This document shows positions 15,060 to 27,709 of a stretch of DNA of 43,995 bases, in pieces (the stretch's first letter is position 1; each line of letters opens with the position of its first letter). The notes beneath the pieces are model-generated. The model saw nothing but the letters and a program-made list of their open reading frames with translations, was not told the DNA's origin and did no database searches. The stretch is from an uncultured Bacilli bacterium. Its GTDB lineage: Bacteria; Bacillota_I; Bacilli_A; RF39; UBA660. The position numbers were made by a program, and so were the translations under genes. Where the stretch lies: contig CALVJQ010000011.1 of assembly GCA_944332265.1 (NCBI GenBank), positions 1-43,995 of the forward strand. The letters run 5' to 3'.

Positions 15060-15073
15060 AAGGAGGTATGAAG

Positions 15074-17392: not shown

Positions 17393-18253
17393 ATGAATAA
17401 AGAATTTAAAGAACGTTTATTAAATGATAAAAAAGCTTTTGATATTTTAGGATTGAAATATTTAACCCCAGAAGATAAAAGAGCAGCCAATTATGTGGCT
17501 AATTCTTTAGGAGATATTAAAACAGGGGCAATTGTAAGTGAAAAAACTGTTTTATTTGAAGATATTTTTCATAAAAGTGTTGCTAATATGAAGATTTTTG
17601 GTGATGATATTTCTCTTTCGTCATTTCGTTTTTCTTTAGTTAGTTTTTTACCTATAATCAATTATTCTTATGCTTATATGACTCATATTATATTTGATGT
17701 TGATGATAAAACTATGCAAGTAGATAGGGAATCTGGAAGAGTAGAATCTTTTAAAATACCTAAAAAGATGGATGAAGTAACAGCGGATATATTTTTAACT
17801 CATGAATTTATTCATGGATTAAAAGATGTTAATTATAATGAGTATATTTTAGTTAATTCTTTAGGAGATGTAATACCATTATTTTATGAAATGATTCAAG
17901 TAGAAAATGATGTGCGTAAGAAAGAATTTTTAAATATTAGAATGAATTTATTAAATAATGAAAGATATTCTTATATAGATGTAAGTACACGAATGAAAAA
18001 AAGTAAGAATGATAAAGATTTATATAAGGTTGTACAAAGTAGAAGTGGGGAGTATTTAAATAGTTTTTATTATGCATTAGGATTATATCATATATATAGG
18101 AAAAATCCTAAAAGGATTTTAGAATTAGTAAAGAAAGTATTAAATAAAGAGATTACTACATTAGATATGCTATTATATTTAGGTATATATCATGTTAATT
18201 TAGATAGAGAATTTAGTTATGAATTAAATGAAATAAGAAAAGTTTTAAAATAG
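17393..18253 (+). CDS. Putative zinc metallopeptidase-like protein (HExxH)
   Basis: 286 residues, no signal peptide and no clear membrane helix. The sequence LTHEFIHGL contains H137-E138-x2-H141, a zincin motif, and E166 in PLFYEMI lies 25 residues on, where gluzincins of the M3 type place their third zinc ligand. The rest does not match a family I can name, and it is much shorter than M3 oligopeptidases. A zinc-dependent peptidase acting in the cytoplasm is the simplest reading. The ATG follows ACAGGGGG. It has its own promoter and terminator and sits between obg and the giant sigma gene. Confidence 0.72.
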   Translation: MNKEFKERLLNDKKAFDILGLKYLTPEDKRAANYVANSLGDIKTGAIVSEKTVLFEDIFHKSVANMKIFGDDISLSSFRFSLVSFLPIINYSYAYMTHIIFDVDDKTMQVDRESGRVESFKIPKKMDEVTADIFLTHEFIHGLKDVNYNEYILVNSLGDVIPLFYEMIQVENDVRKKEFLNIRMNLLNNERYSYIDVSTRMKKSKNDKDLYKVVQSRSGEYLNSFYYALGLYHIYRKNPKRILELVKKVLNKEITTLDMLLYLGIYHVNLDREFSYELNEIRKVLK

Positions 18254-18269
18254 AACTTTTCTTTTTTTT
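18237..18269 (+). terminator. Terminator of the HExxH gene
   Basis: An 8-bp stem GAAAAGTT/AACTTTTC (18237-18244 with 18254-18261) and 9-base loop holding the TAG stop, followed by eight T. The next promoter's TGA-TATAAT begins at the last T. Confidence 0.85.
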
Positions 18270-18277
18270 GATATAAT
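18269..18277 (+). promoter_or_regulatory. Extended -10 promoter of the giant sigma gene
   Basis: TGA then TATAAT (18272-18277), abutting the preceding terminator's T-tract. The start codon is 17 bases beyond the -10 box, so the leader should be about 10 bases. Confidence 0.6.
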
Positions 18278-18294
18278 AAAAAAAGGTGGTTTAT

Positions 18295-21200
18295 ATGGGT
18301 AATGAGGAAATAGAAAATGTATCACAAAAAGAGATTGAAAATTATTTTACTGGGGATGCTATTTCTTTATATATGAAAGAAGTATTTAGTTATCCATTAA
18401 ATTCTATTAATGATAATAAAGAGTTAGCAAGAAAATATAAAAATGGTGATATTGAAGCTAGAGATAAAATGATTAAAGGCAATTTAAGATTAGTTATTAA
18501 TGTAGCTTATAAATATCGTGATAAAATATCTCATTTACAATTATTAGATATTATACAGGAAGGTAATTTAGGCTTAATTAAAGCTATTGAGGAATATAAT
18601 CCTGAAATTGGTGCTTTTTCTACTTATGCTATATGGTGGATTAAACAAGCTATTTGGCGAGCTATATCTAATAAGGAAGAAGAAATTAGAAAACCAGTTT
18701 ATTTTGATGAAAAAAGGAAAAAATATATAGCTTTAGTTAGTGAGTATACTAAAGTTGGTAAGAATTTACCTAGTGATGAAGAAATATGTAAAATTCTTGA
18801 TATTTCATTAAATCTTTTAAAAAAGATTAAAGAACAAGCAAGTTCAGTGGTTGTAAGTATTAATAAAGAAATAAACGATGATAAAAATACAGAATTAGGA
18901 GAGATGATTGCTGATTCAAGAAATGATTTTAATGAAGTAGAAGATAAAATAGTTCAACATCAGTTATTTGTTATTTTAAAAGAAGTATTATCTCCTGTAG
19001 AATATTATGTTATTTATTATAGAATTTTAGCTCCTCATCAAAGTACTTTAGAAAGTATATCAAGTAAACTTTTTATTACTAGGGAAAGAGTACGTCAAAT
19101 TGAAGTAAAAGCATTAAAGAAGATAAAACCATATATGGAGGAAAATTCAAAGAAAAGTATTAATTTATATGCTAAGATTTTAAAAAGAGAAAGAAATTAT
19201 TATAATTATATAAATACTGAACCTATAGATCCAGTTAAAATTTGTAAGTTTATGTATGTAAAAGATTTATTAAGTGAAGATGAATGTAAAATATTATATT
19301 TCCTTTATTTTGGTAAATATGCTTTACCTAGTAAAGATATAGGGGATTATTTAGGATATGAAGATAGTGATTATAAGAGGTATTATACGAGTTTAATAAT
19401 TAAGATTAAGGAAGCTTTTTTAGATGAAGAGAAGTTTAGATTATATAGAGATGAATTGTTAAAAAGTTATGGAACAAAGATTTTTAAAATTAATTTATCT
19501 AAGTCAATTAATTTTGTTGATTATAAATTTATAAAAGATAGATATGCTTCTTTAACATGGAATGATATAGAAACTAAAATAAATGATTATCAAGATGAAT
19601 TTAATAATGATGAAAAACGATTATTAGAAAAGTTTTTTAAAATAAAACAAGTGGGGAATATTAATAAAAGTAATTTAATGAAAGATATTAATCTAAGTAT
19701 TTTTGGTTTAAAGGAGAAACGCTTTATTTTAGATAAAAATAAGTTATGGGGGATTTATCAAGAAAATATTAATGATTTTAATATGGAACAACGTTTATTT
19801 TTAGAGTGCTACTTTTTTAATACGAGAAAAAAAGAAGATTTTATTTCAACTTATAAAGGAAGTTCTTTATATTATAGATATTATTATTTAATCGATAGAT
19901 TAGAAAGAATGTATTATAATATTTATTGCTATTTTGAATACAATTTTAGTTTGGAACAATATAAAGAGTTTAGAGCTAAATATAAAGATAGTTTTTCAGC
20001 TAAAAGGATTGAATTATTAGACTTATTTTATGGGTATAATGGGGAAACTTATTCTATATCTGCATTAGCTCTTAAGTATAATATTGATTATATAAAGATG
20101 CATGATATGATTAGTGATGCAAGAGAAGCTGCTATTATTTTATATTGTGGTTATGGAAATAAGTTAGAAATAGATAAAAAGAAATATATTCCATATATAA
20201 ATAATAGAATTTATGAATATACAGAAGAAACAAGAACAGCTCTTTTAATGTATTTAATTGATAATAAAGATTATGATGAGATATCTAAAGTATTAGGTGT
20301 TTCTAAATATCGTTTATCTAATATAATTACTGATGGAATTAGAAAAATTGATAATTATCGTTTTGGAATAAGTAAACCATTAGTAATTACTAAAGAAGAA
20401 CTAGATAATTATTTTAAATATTATAAGGATAAAATTAGTACTTTAGAAAAAGATATATTACGATTAAAATATTTAAAATATAAGACTAATAAAGATATAT
20501 CTTTATTATTAGGTATTTCGATTGGTGAAGTAAATAAGTATTCAAGAAGATTTAATTTATTATATTATAGTTATTTAATTAGAGATGTTGAAATTGAGGA
20601 ATCTGATATTATAAGAGAAGTATATAGACATCCTAGTGAAAGTGTTTTAAGTGATAAAGAGAAACAATTTGCTAGCTTATATTGGGGAATTAAATCGATA
20701 TATAATAAAGAAGGAATAAAATATAATCAAACAGAGATTTGTAAAATGTTAAACATAACAATAAATAGTTATTATCATTTATATCGAGAGATAGTAAATA
20801 ATATTAAAGGTTTAAAAAAGGGAATAAAGGAAGTACCTAATTTATATATTGAAAGAGATAAATTAGATGTGATTTTGGAAGATAGTCATTTACCTTTATC
20901 ACAAAAAGAGAAAGATATTATATGTTATTTATTTCAGTTGAAAGGTTATCCATATAAAACAATGGATGATTTAGTTAATATTTTGGAGGATAATAAAGGC
21001 AGTATTATTAGACGATATAATAGAGCTATTGTAAGTATATATAAATATTTAAATAAAGAGATAGAAGGTAAGATTGATTATGAGAAGGATATTTTACCTA
21101 ATATGAAATATTTTAGTTTATCTGATCGTACTATAATAGAAAAATATTATAAAGAAGGCTTAACGGTTAATGAACTAGCTACTATTTATAATTTAACTTT

Positions 21201-21924
21201 TGATAAGATGAGTAGAATAGTAGGAAATATAAAGGTATATTTATATGATTTATTAAATAATCCAAAGGTAAAGAAGTTTGATTTTGATTATTATTTAGAA
21301 GTTAGAAATAATAAAGATATACCTTTTTGTGGTAATAAAGAATTAGCAATCAAGATATTTGATTTATATTATGGGATGGTTGGATTGTATCGTTTAACTA
21401 TTCCAGAAATTATTAATTATTTAAAATTAGATATGAATAATTCGGCTGTTAATCGTGTTGCTAATAATTTGATGTTATGTATATGTAAATATAAAGATGG
21501 AATTAGAAATAATATACCCTTTAGTGATGAAGATATTTTTAAATATTATCAAGAGCATGCAAATGAAATGAATTATCAGCATAAACTTTTTTATTTACGA
21601 TATTTAGCTAGAATAAAAAAAGGGGGAATTTTAAATGGAATATCAGTAAAGATAAGTAATGTTATCTTATATGATTTATTAGTAGATAATTATAATGTAC
21701 TAAGTTTTGAAGATTTAGATAGAAATAAAGTAATAGAATTATTAAAGAACAAAGGTAAAATGTTTAGTTCAACAACAAGAAACGAATTAATGGCTTTATT
21801 TTCTATAAGTGGTCGTGATTTAATGAATGGTAAGGATATAAATCATGTATATAGAATTTTGGATAAATTATATAGATTAGAGTATAAAATGGGTATTAAT
21901 GCTTTATTATTAAAAAAAGACTAG
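18295..21924 (+). CDS. Giant sigma-70 family protein with about eleven extra sigma-4-like HTH modules
   Basis: 1209 residues; ordinary primary or group 2 sigma factors have 300-600. Residues 1-285 form a complete sigma core. Region 1.2 contains DAISLYMKEV. Region 2 contains QEGNLGLIKAIEEYNP and the -10 recognition stretch YAIWWIKQAIWRAI (111-124). Region 3 contains IRKPVYFDEK and a GEMIADS linker. Region 4 has the -35 helix TRERVRQIEVKALKKIK (262-278). The remaining 920 residues look like repeated helix-turn-helix modules opening near residues 327, 436, 495, 567, 643, 715, 786, 868, 943, 1014 and 1093, for example STLEKDILRLKYLKYKTNKD and LSDKEKQFASLYW. Best-preserved HTH examples are near 655 (ISKVLGVSKYRLSNII), 730 and 955. 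No stop or frameshift interrupts it. The ATG is 5 bases after AAAGGTGG. It is transcribed alone. Function is inferred as promoter selection with extended DNA contact; this could instead be a regulator using the sigma fold. Confidence 0.88.
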   Translation: MGNEEIENVSQKEIENYFTGDAISLYMKEVFSYPLNSINDNKELARKYKNGDIEARDKMIKGNLRLVINVAYKYRDKISHLQLLDIIQEGNLGLIKAIEEYNPEIGAFSTYAIWWIKQAIWRAISNKEEEIRKPVYFDEKRKKYIALVSEYTKVGKNLPSDEEICKILDISLNLLKKIKEQASSVVVSINKEINDDKNTELGEMIADSRNDFNEVEDKIVQHQLFVILKEVLSPVEYYVIYYRILAPHQSTLESISSKLFITRERVRQIEVKALKKIKPYMEENSKKSINLYAKILKRERNYYNYINTEPIDPVKICKFMYVKDLLSEDECKILYFLYFGKYALPSKDIGDYLGYEDSDYKRYYTSLIIKIKEAFLDEEKFRLYRDELLKSYGTKIFKINLSKSINFVDYKFIKDRYASLTWNDIETKINDYQDEFNNDEKRLLEKFFKIKQVGNINKSNLMKDINLSIFGLKEKRFILDKNKLWGIYQENINDFNMEQRLFLECYFFNTRKKEDFISTYKGSSLYYRYYYLIDRLERMYYNIYCYFEYNFSLEQYKEFRAKYKDSFSAKRIELLDLFYGYNGETYSISALALKYNIDYIKMHDMISDAREAAIILYCGYGNKLEIDKKKYIPYINNRIYEYTEETRTALLMYLIDNKDYDEISKVLGVSKYRLSNIITDGIRKIDNYRFGISKPLVITKEELDNYFKYYKDKISTLEKDILRLKYLKYKTNKDISLLLGISIGEVNKYSRRFNLLYYSYLIRDVEIEESDIIREVYRHPSESVLSDKEKQFASLYWGIKSIYNKEGIKYNQTEICKMLNITINSYYHLYREIVNNIKGLKKGIKEVPNLYIERDKLDVILEDSHLPLSQKEKDIICYLFQLKGYPYKTMDDLVNILEDNKGSIIRRYNRAIVSIYKYLNKEIEGKIDYEKDILPNMKYFSLSDRTIIEKYYKEGLTVNELATIYNLTFDKMSRIVGNIKVYLYDLLNNPKVKKFDFDYYLEVRNNKDIPFCGNKELAIKIFDLYYGMVGLYRLTIPEIINYLKLDMNNSAVNRVANNLMLCICKYKDGIRNNIPFSDEDIFKYYQEHANEMNYQHKLFYLRYLARIKKGGILNGISVKISNVILYDLLVDNYNVLSFEDLDRNKVIELLKNKGKMFSSTTRNELMALFSISGRDLMNGKDINHVYRILDKLYRLEYKMGINALLLKKD

Positions 21925-23467: not shown

Positions 23468-23499
23468 TTTATTAATAGAGTATAGGAAGTGTGAATCTT

Positions 23500-24762
23500 A
23501 TGGATAATAATAAAAAGAAAAAAGCTTTAGTTGTAAGTACTTTGTTATTAGTCTTTTGTATTGGCATAATAACTCTTTTTTGTGTAATGCCTACTAATAA
23601 TTCGAAGGAAGTTTTAGAAACTTTTAAAGTAAGTTTTGATCCAAATGATGGTGGTAATGTGGCAGCTATTGAAATAGAGGATGGGAAGGCTCTTCAAGCA
23701 CCTGAGGATCCAACTCGTGAAGGGTATATTTTTGTTGGCTGGATGTTAGGTGATGAACTATATGATTTTAGCCAAAGTGTAACAGGAGATATTACTTTGA
23801 AAGCAGCTTGGCAAGAATTAGAACCTGATAAAGTTTATTATACAGTTACTTTTGCAACTGATGGTGGTACTACTTTTGCTAATCAAGTAATTGAAAGTGG
23901 GCAACCTGTTGTTCGTCCTGCGGATCCTGTAAAAGATGGATTTGAATTTAAGGGATGGCAAGTAAATGGTCTTGATTATAATTTTGATCAACCTGTATTA
24001 ATGGATTTAACAATTGTTGCAGTTTGGGAACAAGTTGAAGAACCAGAAGATGATCAAAACGAAGATGATAATACTGAAGATGAAGATAAAACTTATACTG
24101 TTCGTTTTAATGGTAATGGTGGAACATTGGGTAAGAATTGTGGAACTCAAACAATTGATGCTGGTGGTTTAGCAAGAAATGTTTGTACTGCTACAAGAGC
24201 TGGTTATACTTTAGTAGGATTTAATACAAGTAAGAGTGCAAGTAGTTCAAATATTTCTTCAAGAAGAATTAATTCAAATACAACTTTCTATGCAATATGG
24301 CGTGCAAATCCTAAGACTTATTATAATTTGAGCTTTAATTTAAATGGTGGCAGTGGTAGTTGTGCAACGAAGAAGTTAGAATCTGGCTCAGCAATTACTA
24401 GTGCTTTAAATAGCTGTAAACCTACGAAAAAATATTATACTTTATCTAAATGGGTTACTTCAGGTGGCGGAAATGCTTCTGGAACAAAGATTTATAATAA
24501 TATGACGGTAAGAGCAGAGTGGACAAAACAAAAATTTAAGGTTACTTGTACACAAACTGGTGGTATTGCCGGTCAAGAATGCTTATTTACTGTTTCTGGA
24601 GTTAGTAATTCTGATATAGATAGTATTTCATATTATTATTCTGGCGTATGGATAAATGCTACCAAGTATGGTTCTTCTTATAAGATGAATAATGCTTTAT
24701 TTAGTAGAGTTTCGTCTTTTAGAATAACGATAGACGGTGAAGTTTTTGATGGAGCAAAGTAA
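23500..24762 (+). CDS. InlB B-repeat surface protein with N-terminal membrane anchor
   Basis: 420 residues. A Lys-rich start and one hydrophobic helix (about 8-30, no clear cleavage site) would anchor it in the membrane. The outer part has two Listeria-Bacteroides (InlB B-type) repeats, with REGYIFVGW and KDGFEFKGW cores. An acidic linker (VEEPEDDQNEDDNTED) separates them from two more, of which the third has NGNGGTLG and RAGYTLVGF and the fourth NLNGGSGS; these last two each hold a cysteine pair. A C-terminal domain with two cysteines (VTCTQ, QECLF) is unfamiliar. No LPXTG motif. ATG 23500 is preferred over GTG 23491, which crowds the AGGAA site. The next gene starts 14 bases after it. Confidence 0.85.
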   Translation: MDNNKKKKALVVSTLLLVFCIGIITLFCVMPTNNSKEVLETFKVSFDPNDGGNVAAIEIEDGKALQAPEDPTREGYIFVGWMLGDELYDFSQSVTGDITLKAAWQELEPDKVYYTVTFATDGGTTFANQVIESGQPVVRPADPVKDGFEFKGWQVNGLDYNFDQPVLMDLTIVAVWEQVEEPEDDQNEDDNTEDEDKTYTVRFNGNGGTLGKNCGTQTIDAGGLARNVCTATRAGYTLVGFNTSKSASSSNISSRRINSNTTFYAIWRANPKTYYNLSFNLNGGSGSCATKKLESGSAITSALNSCKPTKKYYTLSKWVTSGGGNASGTKIYNNMTVRAEWTKQKFKVTCTQTGGIAGQECLFTVSGVSNSDIDSISYYYSGVWINATKYGSSYKMNNALFSRVSSFRITIDGEVFDGAK

Positions 24763-24775
24763 TGAGGTGAAAATG

Positions 24776-27709
24776 ATGAAAAGAGTTAAATTATTAATTA
24801 TTTCTATTATATATTGCTTTATATTTACGGCTTTTATAAATGTAAATGCTAAACAATACTCTTTAGAAGAAATTCCTGATGGTGCTTATATTATTGGTAC
24901 GCATATGTTTTCTTCTTCCTTATCTCCCGAAACATCGCCTTTTTATTCAGGATTAATTGATTCTTCTACAGTTATGCTTGGTTCATCAACGATTGATACT
25001 TCTGGTTTTGAATCAAGCAAAGATTTTGTGATTTATTATAAAATTATCGAAGATATTTGGCTTGATTCTATAACAGGGTCTGACATTACTCCACCTGAGG
25101 ATGGTTTTGAAATAACTCATGTAAATGGTGAATGTGTTGATCCATCTTGTATGGGTAATGCTATTTCTGTTAAATTCTTAGCAAATGCTGGATTAGAAGA
25201 TGTTTTTGAAACAAAAACAATTAATGTTGAATATGGCGAAAAAATTTCAGCAGCTGAAATTCCAACGTTAAATAATCGTCCTGGATATAAGTTTACTTGT
25301 TGGACAATGAAAGATAGTGATGAATGTTTTGATTTAGATACTCCTATTACTAATGAATTACTTGGTGAAGAGGAAGAGTTAGTATTAGAAACTAAATGGG
25401 AACAAATAAACTATAAAATTACTTATAATAATAATTTTGATGAAACGACTGAAATTAGAGAATGTACTTATGGTAATGTAGGTAATGAAGAGATAAATTG
25501 TTCTTTTGCTGAATATGATTCATTATTTGGGGCACGAGAAAATTATATTTTTGCTGGGTGGTCAACTACTCCAGACGGAGATACTTTATATAATGAAAGT
25601 ACTGACATGGGTGTTATTTTAGGCGATTCTGAAAATATTACTTTATATGCTATTTGGAAAACTGTAAGTTATAAAGTTACATATGATTTAAATGGCGGTA
25701 CATTTAGTGAAGTAGTAAGTCCGCAAACGACATTTACTACGGAAGATGAAAGTATTACTTTACCTAATGTAAATAAAGTCGGTTATAATTTTGTAAATTG
25801 GACTTATGATGGTGAAGAATTTGATGGAAATGATTTACCTAATAAAGATATTACTATAAAAGCTAATTGGAAACCAATTACATATTCATTTGTATATGAG
25901 TCTGATAGAGTAGAATGTACATATGATGTAGATTGTACTATTGATATTACACCTGAAAATGTTCCAGAAGGACGTGAATTTAATAAGTGGTATATTAATG
26001 ATACAAGTAAGATATATATCGGTAATAAGGTTAAGAATTTTACAACAACTGATAAAAAAGAATTTACTTTAGTTCCAGAGTACGAATTAATTAAATATTA
26101 TATTACATATGATTTAGATGGTGGAATTTTAGAAGATGAGAATGTTAATTCTTATACTTATGATTCTATAGAACCTTCTAATAATAAGAATATTACTTTA
26201 AATGTACCAAATAAAGTTGGTTATGATTTTGCTGGATGGGAAGTTATTAAAGGTACAGGTCTTAGTGTAAGAAGTAATACGGAAGTAGTAATTGTTGGAG
26301 CTTCTGATGTTACTTTGAAAGCTAAATGGAAAGAAAAAACTTATACTATTCAATATTATAATGATGATGCGATGGTTGAAAATAAAAATTGTACTTATAC
26401 TAATTGTATAGTTAATGCTCATGATGTTACAAAAGAAGATTATGTATTTATTGGATGGAAATCAGAAAGTACAGGTTTAGTATATAGTAAAGATAGTCTT
26501 ATTTCTTCAACTGATTTAGTAGATGAGGTAGTTAAGCTTGATGCTAAATGGACTAATGAGTATCGTTATACTATTGCTTATGATTTAGATGGTGGAACAT
26601 TTGCTGGAGAAGCTCCTGTTAGTTATATGGCTAATGAAGAAGTATTACTTCCTACGCCTACTAAAGAAGGATATAAATTTGCTGGTTGGTTAGTTGATGA
26701 TGAAGAATTAGATGATAATCGTTTAATTGGATATAGTAAGGATGTTAAATTAAAAGCACAATGGGTTGCTAATACATATACAATTAAATTTAATATGACT
26801 GGTAAATCTATTCCTGAAGTTGTTTGTACATATGATAAAGATTGTTCTTTTGGAGATCATAGTTCTTATGTAGCAGAAAATATGAAATTATTAGGTTGGG
26901 CTAAGATTTCTCAAGGTTCTATCTATTATGGAGATAATTTAGTAGTTAAAAATTTAACGAATAATGATAAAGATGTTATTAATTTATATGCTGTATTAGA
27001 AGATATTACTGTTCGCCATAATGTTTCTTATTATTTAGATGGTGGAGAGTTAACAAGTGGAATAATAAATAATACTTATGTTGATGGTGAAAAGGTAACT
27101 TTACCAGAACCTACTAAAGAAGGATATAAGTTTGCTGGTTGGTATGATGTTAATAGTAGTTCTATTATAGAAAGTGGAACAGCAATTAAGAAAGATTGGT
27201 TATTAGTTGCTAAATGGGAAATACTTACTTATAAGATTACTTATGTTGATTCTTTAGGTGAAGATTTATTAGTTGATGGTTCTTATCCTACTAGTTATGC
27301 TTATGGTGTTAAAGAAATTATTATTCCTAAATTACCTGATGGTGTAATTAGTTGGAAAGTTTTAGGAACTGAGTTAAATAAATATTTCTTAAATGGTGAT
27401 GAGACTTCTAGTTATGTAATTAATGTTAGTAATTATGGAGATATCGAGGTAGTTGGAGAGTTAGCTCCTAAACCAGAACCTGTTATTAAGAAATATGAAG
27501 TTAGTTTATATGATGAAGATATATTATTAGGTGTTCTTTTAGTAGAAGAGAATGATACTATTATAAGTGATAAAACGGTATTTAAAGATATTGAATATGA
27601 AGGATATAAAGAAATGTCATGGAATGATAGTGAAGGAGAACCTTTTGATATTGAATCTACAACTATTACAGAAAATATTAATTTATATTTAGTAAAAGAT
27701 AATGCTTAG
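24776..27709 (+). CDS. Secreted protein of about eleven InlB B-type repeats
   Basis: 977 residues. A signal peptide (about 1-23) ends at VNA, with cleavage before KQYS. After a region of about 100 residues unlike the repeats come some eleven units of about 70-80 residues, each starting with a YxITYDLDGG-like strand and centred on GYxFAGW, ending in a LxAKW strand. Canonical units (3, 5, 7, 9) alternate with units carrying a CTYxxxC motif (2, 4, 6, 8: ECTYDVDC, NCTYTNC, VCTYDKDC). No sortase motif or C-terminal helix is present, so it is either released or held non-covalently. ATG 24776 is favoured by GAGGTGA at 24764. It forms an operon with the preceding gene. Confidence 0.87.
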   Translation: MKRVKLLIISIIYCFIFTAFINVNAKQYSLEEIPDGAYIIGTHMFSSSLSPETSPFYSGLIDSSTVMLGSSTIDTSGFESSKDFVIYYKIIEDIWLDSITGSDITPPEDGFEITHVNGECVDPSCMGNAISVKFLANAGLEDVFETKTINVEYGEKISAAEIPTLNNRPGYKFTCWTMKDSDECFDLDTPITNELLGEEEELVLETKWEQINYKITYNNNFDETTEIRECTYGNVGNEEINCSFAEYDSLFGARENYIFAGWSTTPDGDTLYNESTDMGVILGDSENITLYAIWKTVSYKVTYDLNGGTFSEVVSPQTTFTTEDESITLPNVNKVGYNFVNWTYDGEEFDGNDLPNKDITIKANWKPITYSFVYESDRVECTYDVDCTIDITPENVPEGREFNKWYINDTSKIYIGNKVKNFTTTDKKEFTLVPEYELIKYYITYDLDGGILEDENVNSYTYDSIEPSNNKNITLNVPNKVGYDFAGWEVIKGTGLSVRSNTEVVIVGASDVTLKAKWKEKTYTIQYYNDDAMVENKNCTYTNCIVNAHDVTKEDYVFIGWKSESTGLVYSKDSLISSTDLVDEVVKLDAKWTNEYRYTIAYDLDGGTFAGEAPVSYMANEEVLLPTPTKEGYKFAGWLVDDEELDDNRLIGYSKDVKLKAQWVANTYTIKFNMTGKSIPEVVCTYDKDCSFGDHSSYVAENMKLLGWAKISQGSIYYGDNLVVKNLTNNDKDVINLYAVLEDITVRHNVSYYLDGGELTSGIINNTYVDGEKVTLPEPTKEGYKFAGWYDVNSSSIIESGTAIKKDWLLVAKWEILTYKITYVDSLGEDLLVDGSYPTSYAYGVKEIIIPKLPDGVISWKVLGTELNKYFLNGDETSSYVINVSNYGDIEVVGELAPKPEPVIKKYEVSLYDEDILLGVLLVEENDTIISDKTVFKDIEYEGYKEMSWNDSEGEPFDIESTTITENINLYLVKDNA
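25160..27705 (+). repeat. InlB B-type repeat array
   Basis: Tandem protein-level repeats within the 977-residue secreted protein. The best-conserved DNA-level pair encodes TKEGYKFAGW at about 26660-26690 and 27113-27143, indicating some recent duplication; the other units have diverged at DNA level. Confidence 0.7.

Follow-up and report, generated by a model that had tools for sequence, protein, structure and literature searches.

A giant alternative sigma factor of uncultured Bacilli with a tail of twelve sigma-4-like modules

Described sigma factors and the sigma part of the giant protein

Region 4 of sigma factors fixes the -35 element, and sigma-4 domains also bind the beta flap, anti-sigma factors and activators, while region 3 separates groups 1-3 of the sigma-70 family from the ECF sigmas. 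To our knowledge described sigma-70 factors carry one region 4, and a literature search, with subscription journals mostly outside its scope, found no description of a sigma factor with multiple region-4 modules. The nearest idea is that of the ECF sigmas with C-terminal extensions, including ECF41 (PMC3426412; reviewed in PMC8999054), in which, according to the portions of these papers available, a sigma factor likewise carries an extra C-terminal part and the extensions are other domains. The giant protein presented here, encoded in the window (the whole stretch of 43,995 nucleotides analysed), differs from the extended ECF sigmas, as far as those portions describe them, in having regions 1.2 and 3 and in that its extension consists of sigma-4-like copies, not of one unrelated domain. 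Compared to RpoD- and RpoS-type sigmas, the giant has 924 more residues with twelve sigma-4-like modules. Its single modules may have the same fold as UPF0122, KorA and ArdK (Z 8.3-10.5), which are free-standing single-module proteins, whereas the giant is a chain on a sigma factor.

The window is one contig of the 1.42 Mb genome of a gut bacterium, and re-reading of the open frame found the coordinates, the uninterrupted frame and the 1209-aa length given in a preliminary description of this DNA to be correct (Table 1). The same genome encodes a normal RpoD (375 aa) plus several shorter sigma-like genes and, as this separate RpoD is present, the giant is an alternative sigma factor. A second odd sigma-like protein, of 621 aa, is encoded in the same genome (G000:C15; L073:1862-3724, + strand) and has a clear region 4 (63 bits), a weak region 2 and long extra N- and C-terminal parts.

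The assignment of sigma regions 1.2, 2, 3 and 4 to residues 1-285 in the preliminary description is borne out by Pfam and NCBIfam. Sigma70_r2 (PF04542) matches residues 60-126 at 1.5e-16, above its cut-off, Sigma70_r3 (PF04539) matches residues 140-209, just above its cut-off, and Sigma70_r4 (PF04545) matches four separate stretches (5.2e-21 over the whole protein). The RpoS/RpoD-type NCBIfam models align end to end over residues 14-285 (TIGR02394, 8e-56; TIGR02393, 1e-50), and region 1.2 is thus included. The marks of a sigma-70 factor are present, i.e. region 2 and a region 4 with a helix-turn-helix (HTH), as well as regions 1.2 and 3, but the scores lie far below the curated cut-offs for RpoS (189.6 vs 378.7), RpoD (172.3 vs 354) and MzaA (160.4 vs 800), so that the protein belongs to the sigma-70 family and to none of these subfamilies. 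The likeness to MzaA, the sigma factor of the MZA anti-phage system, is to the giant's core only (8e-47; PADLOC 3.5e-33), with no similarity in the tail. Conservation is highest in region 2, which holds the core-binding and -10 functions (mean pairwise identity 0.47 among 28 giants); the core-binding LDxIQEGNLGL and the -10-reading FSTYA..WI.Q motifs are kept in most of these giants, and the region 4.2 motif TRERVRQIE in many. Decayed -10 motifs occur in some giants (L008, L009 and L048).

Table 1. Features of the giant sigma factor gene, in coordinates of the window.
Feature	Residues	Positions	Strand	Basis
Giant sigma factor gene	1-1209	18295..21924	+	single open frame, ATG at 18295, stop ends at 21924; relatives of equal length
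Extended -10 (TGATATAAT), TATAAT, putative own promoter of giant gene		18272..18277	+	read in sequence
Shine-Dalgarno AGGTGG, directly before ATG		18284..18289	+	sequence
Probable intrinsic terminator, inverted repeat (I3) and T-run between upstream gene and giant		18231..18267	+	sequence, inverted-repeat search
Sigma regions 1.2-2, core-binding and -10 region	15-127	18337..18675	+	Pfam r2 60-126; conservation
Sigma region 3	135-214	18697..18936	+	Pfam r3, 1.1e-5
Canonical sigma region 4, TRERVRQIE	215-287	18937..19155	+	Pfam r4
M1	308-378	19216..19428	+	profile vs sigma-4 score 47, prob 96; model helices
M2	405-474	19507..19716	+	linked to M4 (30), M12 (36-37); model
M3	476-545	19720..19929	+	linked to M6 (30-31); model
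M4	548-622	19936..20160	+	sigma-4 score 31; VIA-align: Thermus SigA region 4, Z 7.3-7.5
M5, sigma-4.2-like SKxRxSNII	627-694	20173..20376	+	sigma-4 score 36; Pfam r4
M6	695-767	20377..20595	+	VIA-align: KorA, Z 10.0; M. tuberculosis SigD region 4, Z 8.8
M7	768-846	20596..20832	+	VIA-align: S. aureus SigA domain 4, Z 7.8
M8, most conserved, most basic helix	848-924	20836..21066	+	conservation, charge, profile comparison
M9	926-992	21070..21270	+	VIA-align: WhiG region 4, Z 8.3, 1.9 A; Pfam r4 944-968
M10	993-1071	21271..21507	+	linked to M4 (41), M5 (38)
M11	1074-1135	21514..21699	+	linked to M2 (28)
M12	1136-1209	21700..21921	+	linked to M2 (36-37), M8 (34); model helices

A conserved tail of homologous repeats

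The other 924 residues are, judged from profile comparisons and a structure model, twelve successive sigma-4-like HTH modules (M1-M12), each some 60-80 residues long. A region-4 profile built from 30 relatives matches nine non-overlapping places in the tail (residues 288-1209), the best at residues 318-377 (E 1.2e-6), against 0.07 matches per trial, and at most one, at scores of at least 19 in column-shuffled tails and a single match scoring 14 in the reversed tail. When all modules were compared with each other, every one was linked to others with best scores of 28-56, the maxima being 19 for shuffled and 21 for reversed sequences, and at most 16 for sigma region 2 as a helical control. Eight modules (M1 and M4-M10) match sigma region 4 directly, M10 with a score of 21-22 only, which is near the null maximum; M2, M3, M11 and M12 are linked to it only via other modules. 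The departure from one region 4 per protein thus comprises eight further direct matches and four via these. Some modules also reach scores of up to 31 with sigma region 3, which is HTH-like too, and the similarity is therefore partly general HTH likeness; region 4 stays closer than region 3 for M1 (47) and M5 (36). On the tail as read from the DNA, PF04545 gives low-scoring matches at residues about 643-685 (E 3e-4), 714-747 and 944-968, and a profile of the tail gives weak matches only to the sequences of solved structures, the best being region 4 of SigF (E 0.09). Each of the eleven module openings (residues 327 to 1093) of the preliminary description falls inside one of M1-M11, and its count of about eleven holds one to one for these, having missed M12 at the C-terminus.

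An AF2 model of residues 286-1209, based on a 17-sequence alignment, has a mean pLDDT of 86.8 and repeats the anticipated four-helix pattern all along the tail; its pTM of 0.61 makes the path of the chain and the mutual placement of the modules uncertain. According to VIA-align, five modules (M4, M5, M6, M7 and M9) match solved sigma-4 domains with Z 7.3-9.1, values that are modest for small helical folds, and M5 and M6 match the single-module proteins UPF0122 and KorA with Z 10.0-10.5, a range common among such folds. The matches of M5 are to UPF0122 (Z 10.5), SigF (Z 9.1) and SigE region 4 with -35 DNA (Z 8.3), and several modules match sigma-4 structures solved with an anti-sigma factor or other partners. 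In a Foldseek search with the tail model the top rows were nearly all sigma factors, no row being individually significant, and structure prediction from the single sequence of residues 286-702 (pLDDT 41) was of no use.

The recognition helices differ in mean charge, being +2.3 in region 4, +1.3 to +3.2 in M5-M9, +0.5 in M3 and -0.6 to 0 in M1, M2, M4 and M10 (charges cover region 4 and M1-M10, with hand-set and less sure positions for M2, M3 and M10). A region-4.2-like SKxRxSN is retained in M5, and 78% of the relatives preserve three basic positions in M8; outside M5, most of the contact residues of sigma region 4.2 are absent from the tail. Since the helices of M5-M9 are basic and those of M1, M2, M4 and M10 neutral or acidic, only about five modules look fit for DNA, and some of the others probably do not read DNA.

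Locus, distribution and evolution

The own -10 element and Shine-Dalgarno sequence, together with the inverted repeat and T-run that separate the upstream gene, suggest that the giant gene is probably its own transcription unit. A TATAAT-like -10 lies close 5' of the start in most relatives, and since sigma-A-like promoters precede several giants, a special self-promoter is not evident. A repeat search before the giant genes of L020 and six other loci revealed no general arrays of upstream sites. Nine 39-nt palindromic repeats (AAATTGTCGCGCCATTGGCGCGACAATT type) precede the giant gene of L020 (7048-7948) and are absent from the other six loci; a further copy of this type lies at about 6316 of L020, inside a DUF1016/PDC-S02-type nuclease gene. 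What stands of the earlier interpretation is a genuine sigma-70-type N-terminus with many sigma-4-like modules in a design not found described. Its suggestion that these could read long arrays upstream of promoters is not borne out: only about five modules look DNA-fit by charge, and a repeat array stands before the giant at L020 but not before giants in general.

Upstream of the giant (17393-18253, +) is encoded a 286-aa protein with an HExxH motif (THEFIHG), which matches no Pfam family and probably represents a small unnamed metallopeptidase family. In close relatives its counterparts adjoin the giant, whereas in other members of the family they occur without it. It was rejected as the giant's partner or protease because homologues occur in giant-less genomes, the giant also occurs without it, a probable terminator lies between both genes, and it is not near the giants of other genera. 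A neighbourhood comparison found no constant partner gene, and in the window's closest relatives the giant steadily precedes an FAD-dependent oxidoreductase gene. At L021 (268-16539) the giant lies inside a defence cluster with two AbiD-like genes, a DRT2-like reverse transcriptase and type I restriction genes; a general link with defence genes was rejected, as it is clear at L021 only, with single candidates at L020, L015 and L031. Elsewhere in the window, two probable surface proteins (23491-24762 and 24737-27709, both +) contain Listeria-Bacteroides (InlB B-type) repeats, 4 in the first and 7 in the second, and a ribosomal protein L21 leader (RF00559; 14988-15059, +) precedes the gene at 15068, which is taken to be rplU.

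The search for homologues proposed in the preliminary description recovered full-length relatives of about 1090-1228 aa, at 27-51% identity, from 12 genera and about 22 of the species sampled. Giants are present in 16 of the 386 genomes of the window's family, and the search of family and order gave 22 genomes in 12 genera, as counted from search tables with split genes included. A search of the class turned up no giant beyond this one family of uncultured Bacilli. A phage or plasmid origin was rejected since no relatives were found in viral contigs or in phage or plasmid records. The relatives stem from MAGs titled uncultured Bacilli or Tenericutes, and many isolate names contain 'Lapin', which we read as rabbit gut.

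Other forms accompany the giants. Short forms of about 400-418 aa end after M1, and a 607-aa sigma (L071:1516-3336, -), in which the region 4-M1 unit occurs twice, is likely a step in the growth of the tail. At L015 a frame change breaks the protein at residue 413/415 into a 418-aa sigma and a 793-aa tail, whose overlap in different frames (L015:6197-6221) may reflect a frameshift, a sequencing error or a programmed frameshift, while L018 has an in-frame stop within region 4. The headless L031 (975 aa) lacks regions 2-3 and has its own promoter and Shine-Dalgarno sequence; together with the decayed -10 motifs of some giants, this suggests that the tail may have some activity independent of polymerase. 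The tree does not separate short from giant forms and needs at least four changes between them. We read this as repeated tail loss at a fixed boundary, because several independent origins of a twelve-module tail are unlikely; the site at which the tail can be lost or split off is residue ~400-415.

Purifying selection acts on the tail (dN/dS 0.27-0.34 in three pairs), and the modules proved conserved among the 28 giants, M5, M8, M9 and M10 at 0.36-0.41 compared to 0.37 for sigma-4. Between L019 and L025 identity is 71% up to residue 400 and 56% beyond, with dS about 0.5 and 0.8-1.1, respectively. The two tandem copies at L023 agree at 79-89% within roughly the first 100 residues and at 28-50% later, and each tail has its closest match at another locus (49% to L027 and 53% to L026, respectively); between the copies lie a transposase and what remains of another 3' end. 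This is most simply read as gene conversion that affected the head of copies whose tails are old and different. Judged by these comparisons, sigma part and tail diverge independently, which points to a tail with a role of its own. Between L019 and L021 a stretch of 92% identity begins 41 bases 5' of the start and ends at the stop, with unlike sequence on either side, indicating that the gene moves alone.

Possible roles of the tail

The explanation that we put forward, and consider evenly poised, is that of an alternative sigma-70 factor whose tail contacts DNA upstream of the -35 element via M5-M9, the rest being spacers or protein contacts. Sequence and model establish the sigma core, the conserved repeats and the occurrence of short and split forms, and the mechanism is inferred from them. 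Region 4 would have been multiplied into the C-terminal chain of twelve HTH modules. By analogy with other sigmas, regions 2-4 would bind the host core polymerase and read the -10 and -35 elements, and from the latter the tail would extend upstream along the promoter. The basic middle modules, above all M5 and M8, would hold DNA, and M1-M4 and M10-M12 would be spacers or protein binders. Promoter choice would then depend on a long composite upstream zone, as if an activator were built into the sigma factor. The tail may be an exchangeable specificity part, as tandem copies share the sigma part but carry old, different tails. With more hesitation, we picture a sigma with its own multi-part upstream DNA reader, an exchangeable sigma-4 chain that would set the promoter specificity of the polymerase and be shuffled between copies whose polymerase-binding head is kept uniform.

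The charge pattern, basic in M5-M9, and the conserved features of M5 and M8 favour an upstream-DNA tail over its rivals. The same basic, conserved helices argue against a tail serving as protein-binding scaffold or built-in regulator, which would bind partners or else, by folding back, block the sigma until a signal arrives; this possibility, though somewhat doubtful, would fit the neutral or acidic recognition helices of M1, M2, M4 and M10, the module matches to sigma-4 structures solved with partners, and a tail that can be a separate gene or occur without regions 2-3. ECF41 offers a precedent, a fused C-terminal regulatory domain in the portion of the description available (PMC3426412). No constant partner gene lies nearby, however, and the HExxH neighbour, found in giant-less genomes and not near other genera's giants, does not fill that place.

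The headless relative, the decayed -10 motifs and the relocation of the single gene between unrelated neighbourhoods, one of them rich in defence genes, could also mean that the protein has left sigma work and is a DNA organiser or gene-island repressor with a mere sigma-like head. This is unlikely, as region 2 is the most conserved part in the family and its copies are kept alike in the tandem pair. That the gene is decaying or selfish and plays no part in the cell appears highly improbable: the patchy occurrence within the family, the frame breaks in two relatives (L015 and L018) and the transposase between the L023 copies are consistent with it, but most relatives keep full length despite their divergence, purifying selection extends along the whole tail, and close relatives keep the gene beside the same oxidoreductase gene.

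Thirteen region-4 units in one chain, selected across about a dozen genera, would widen the promoter concept and may reveal a new route by which bacterial polymerase chooses genes. They raise the questions of whether a sigma factor needs activators to bind far upstream and whether a tail swap can alter its specificity, and the short (about 400 aa), duplicated (607 aa), split, headless and giant forms provide a natural series for testing these.
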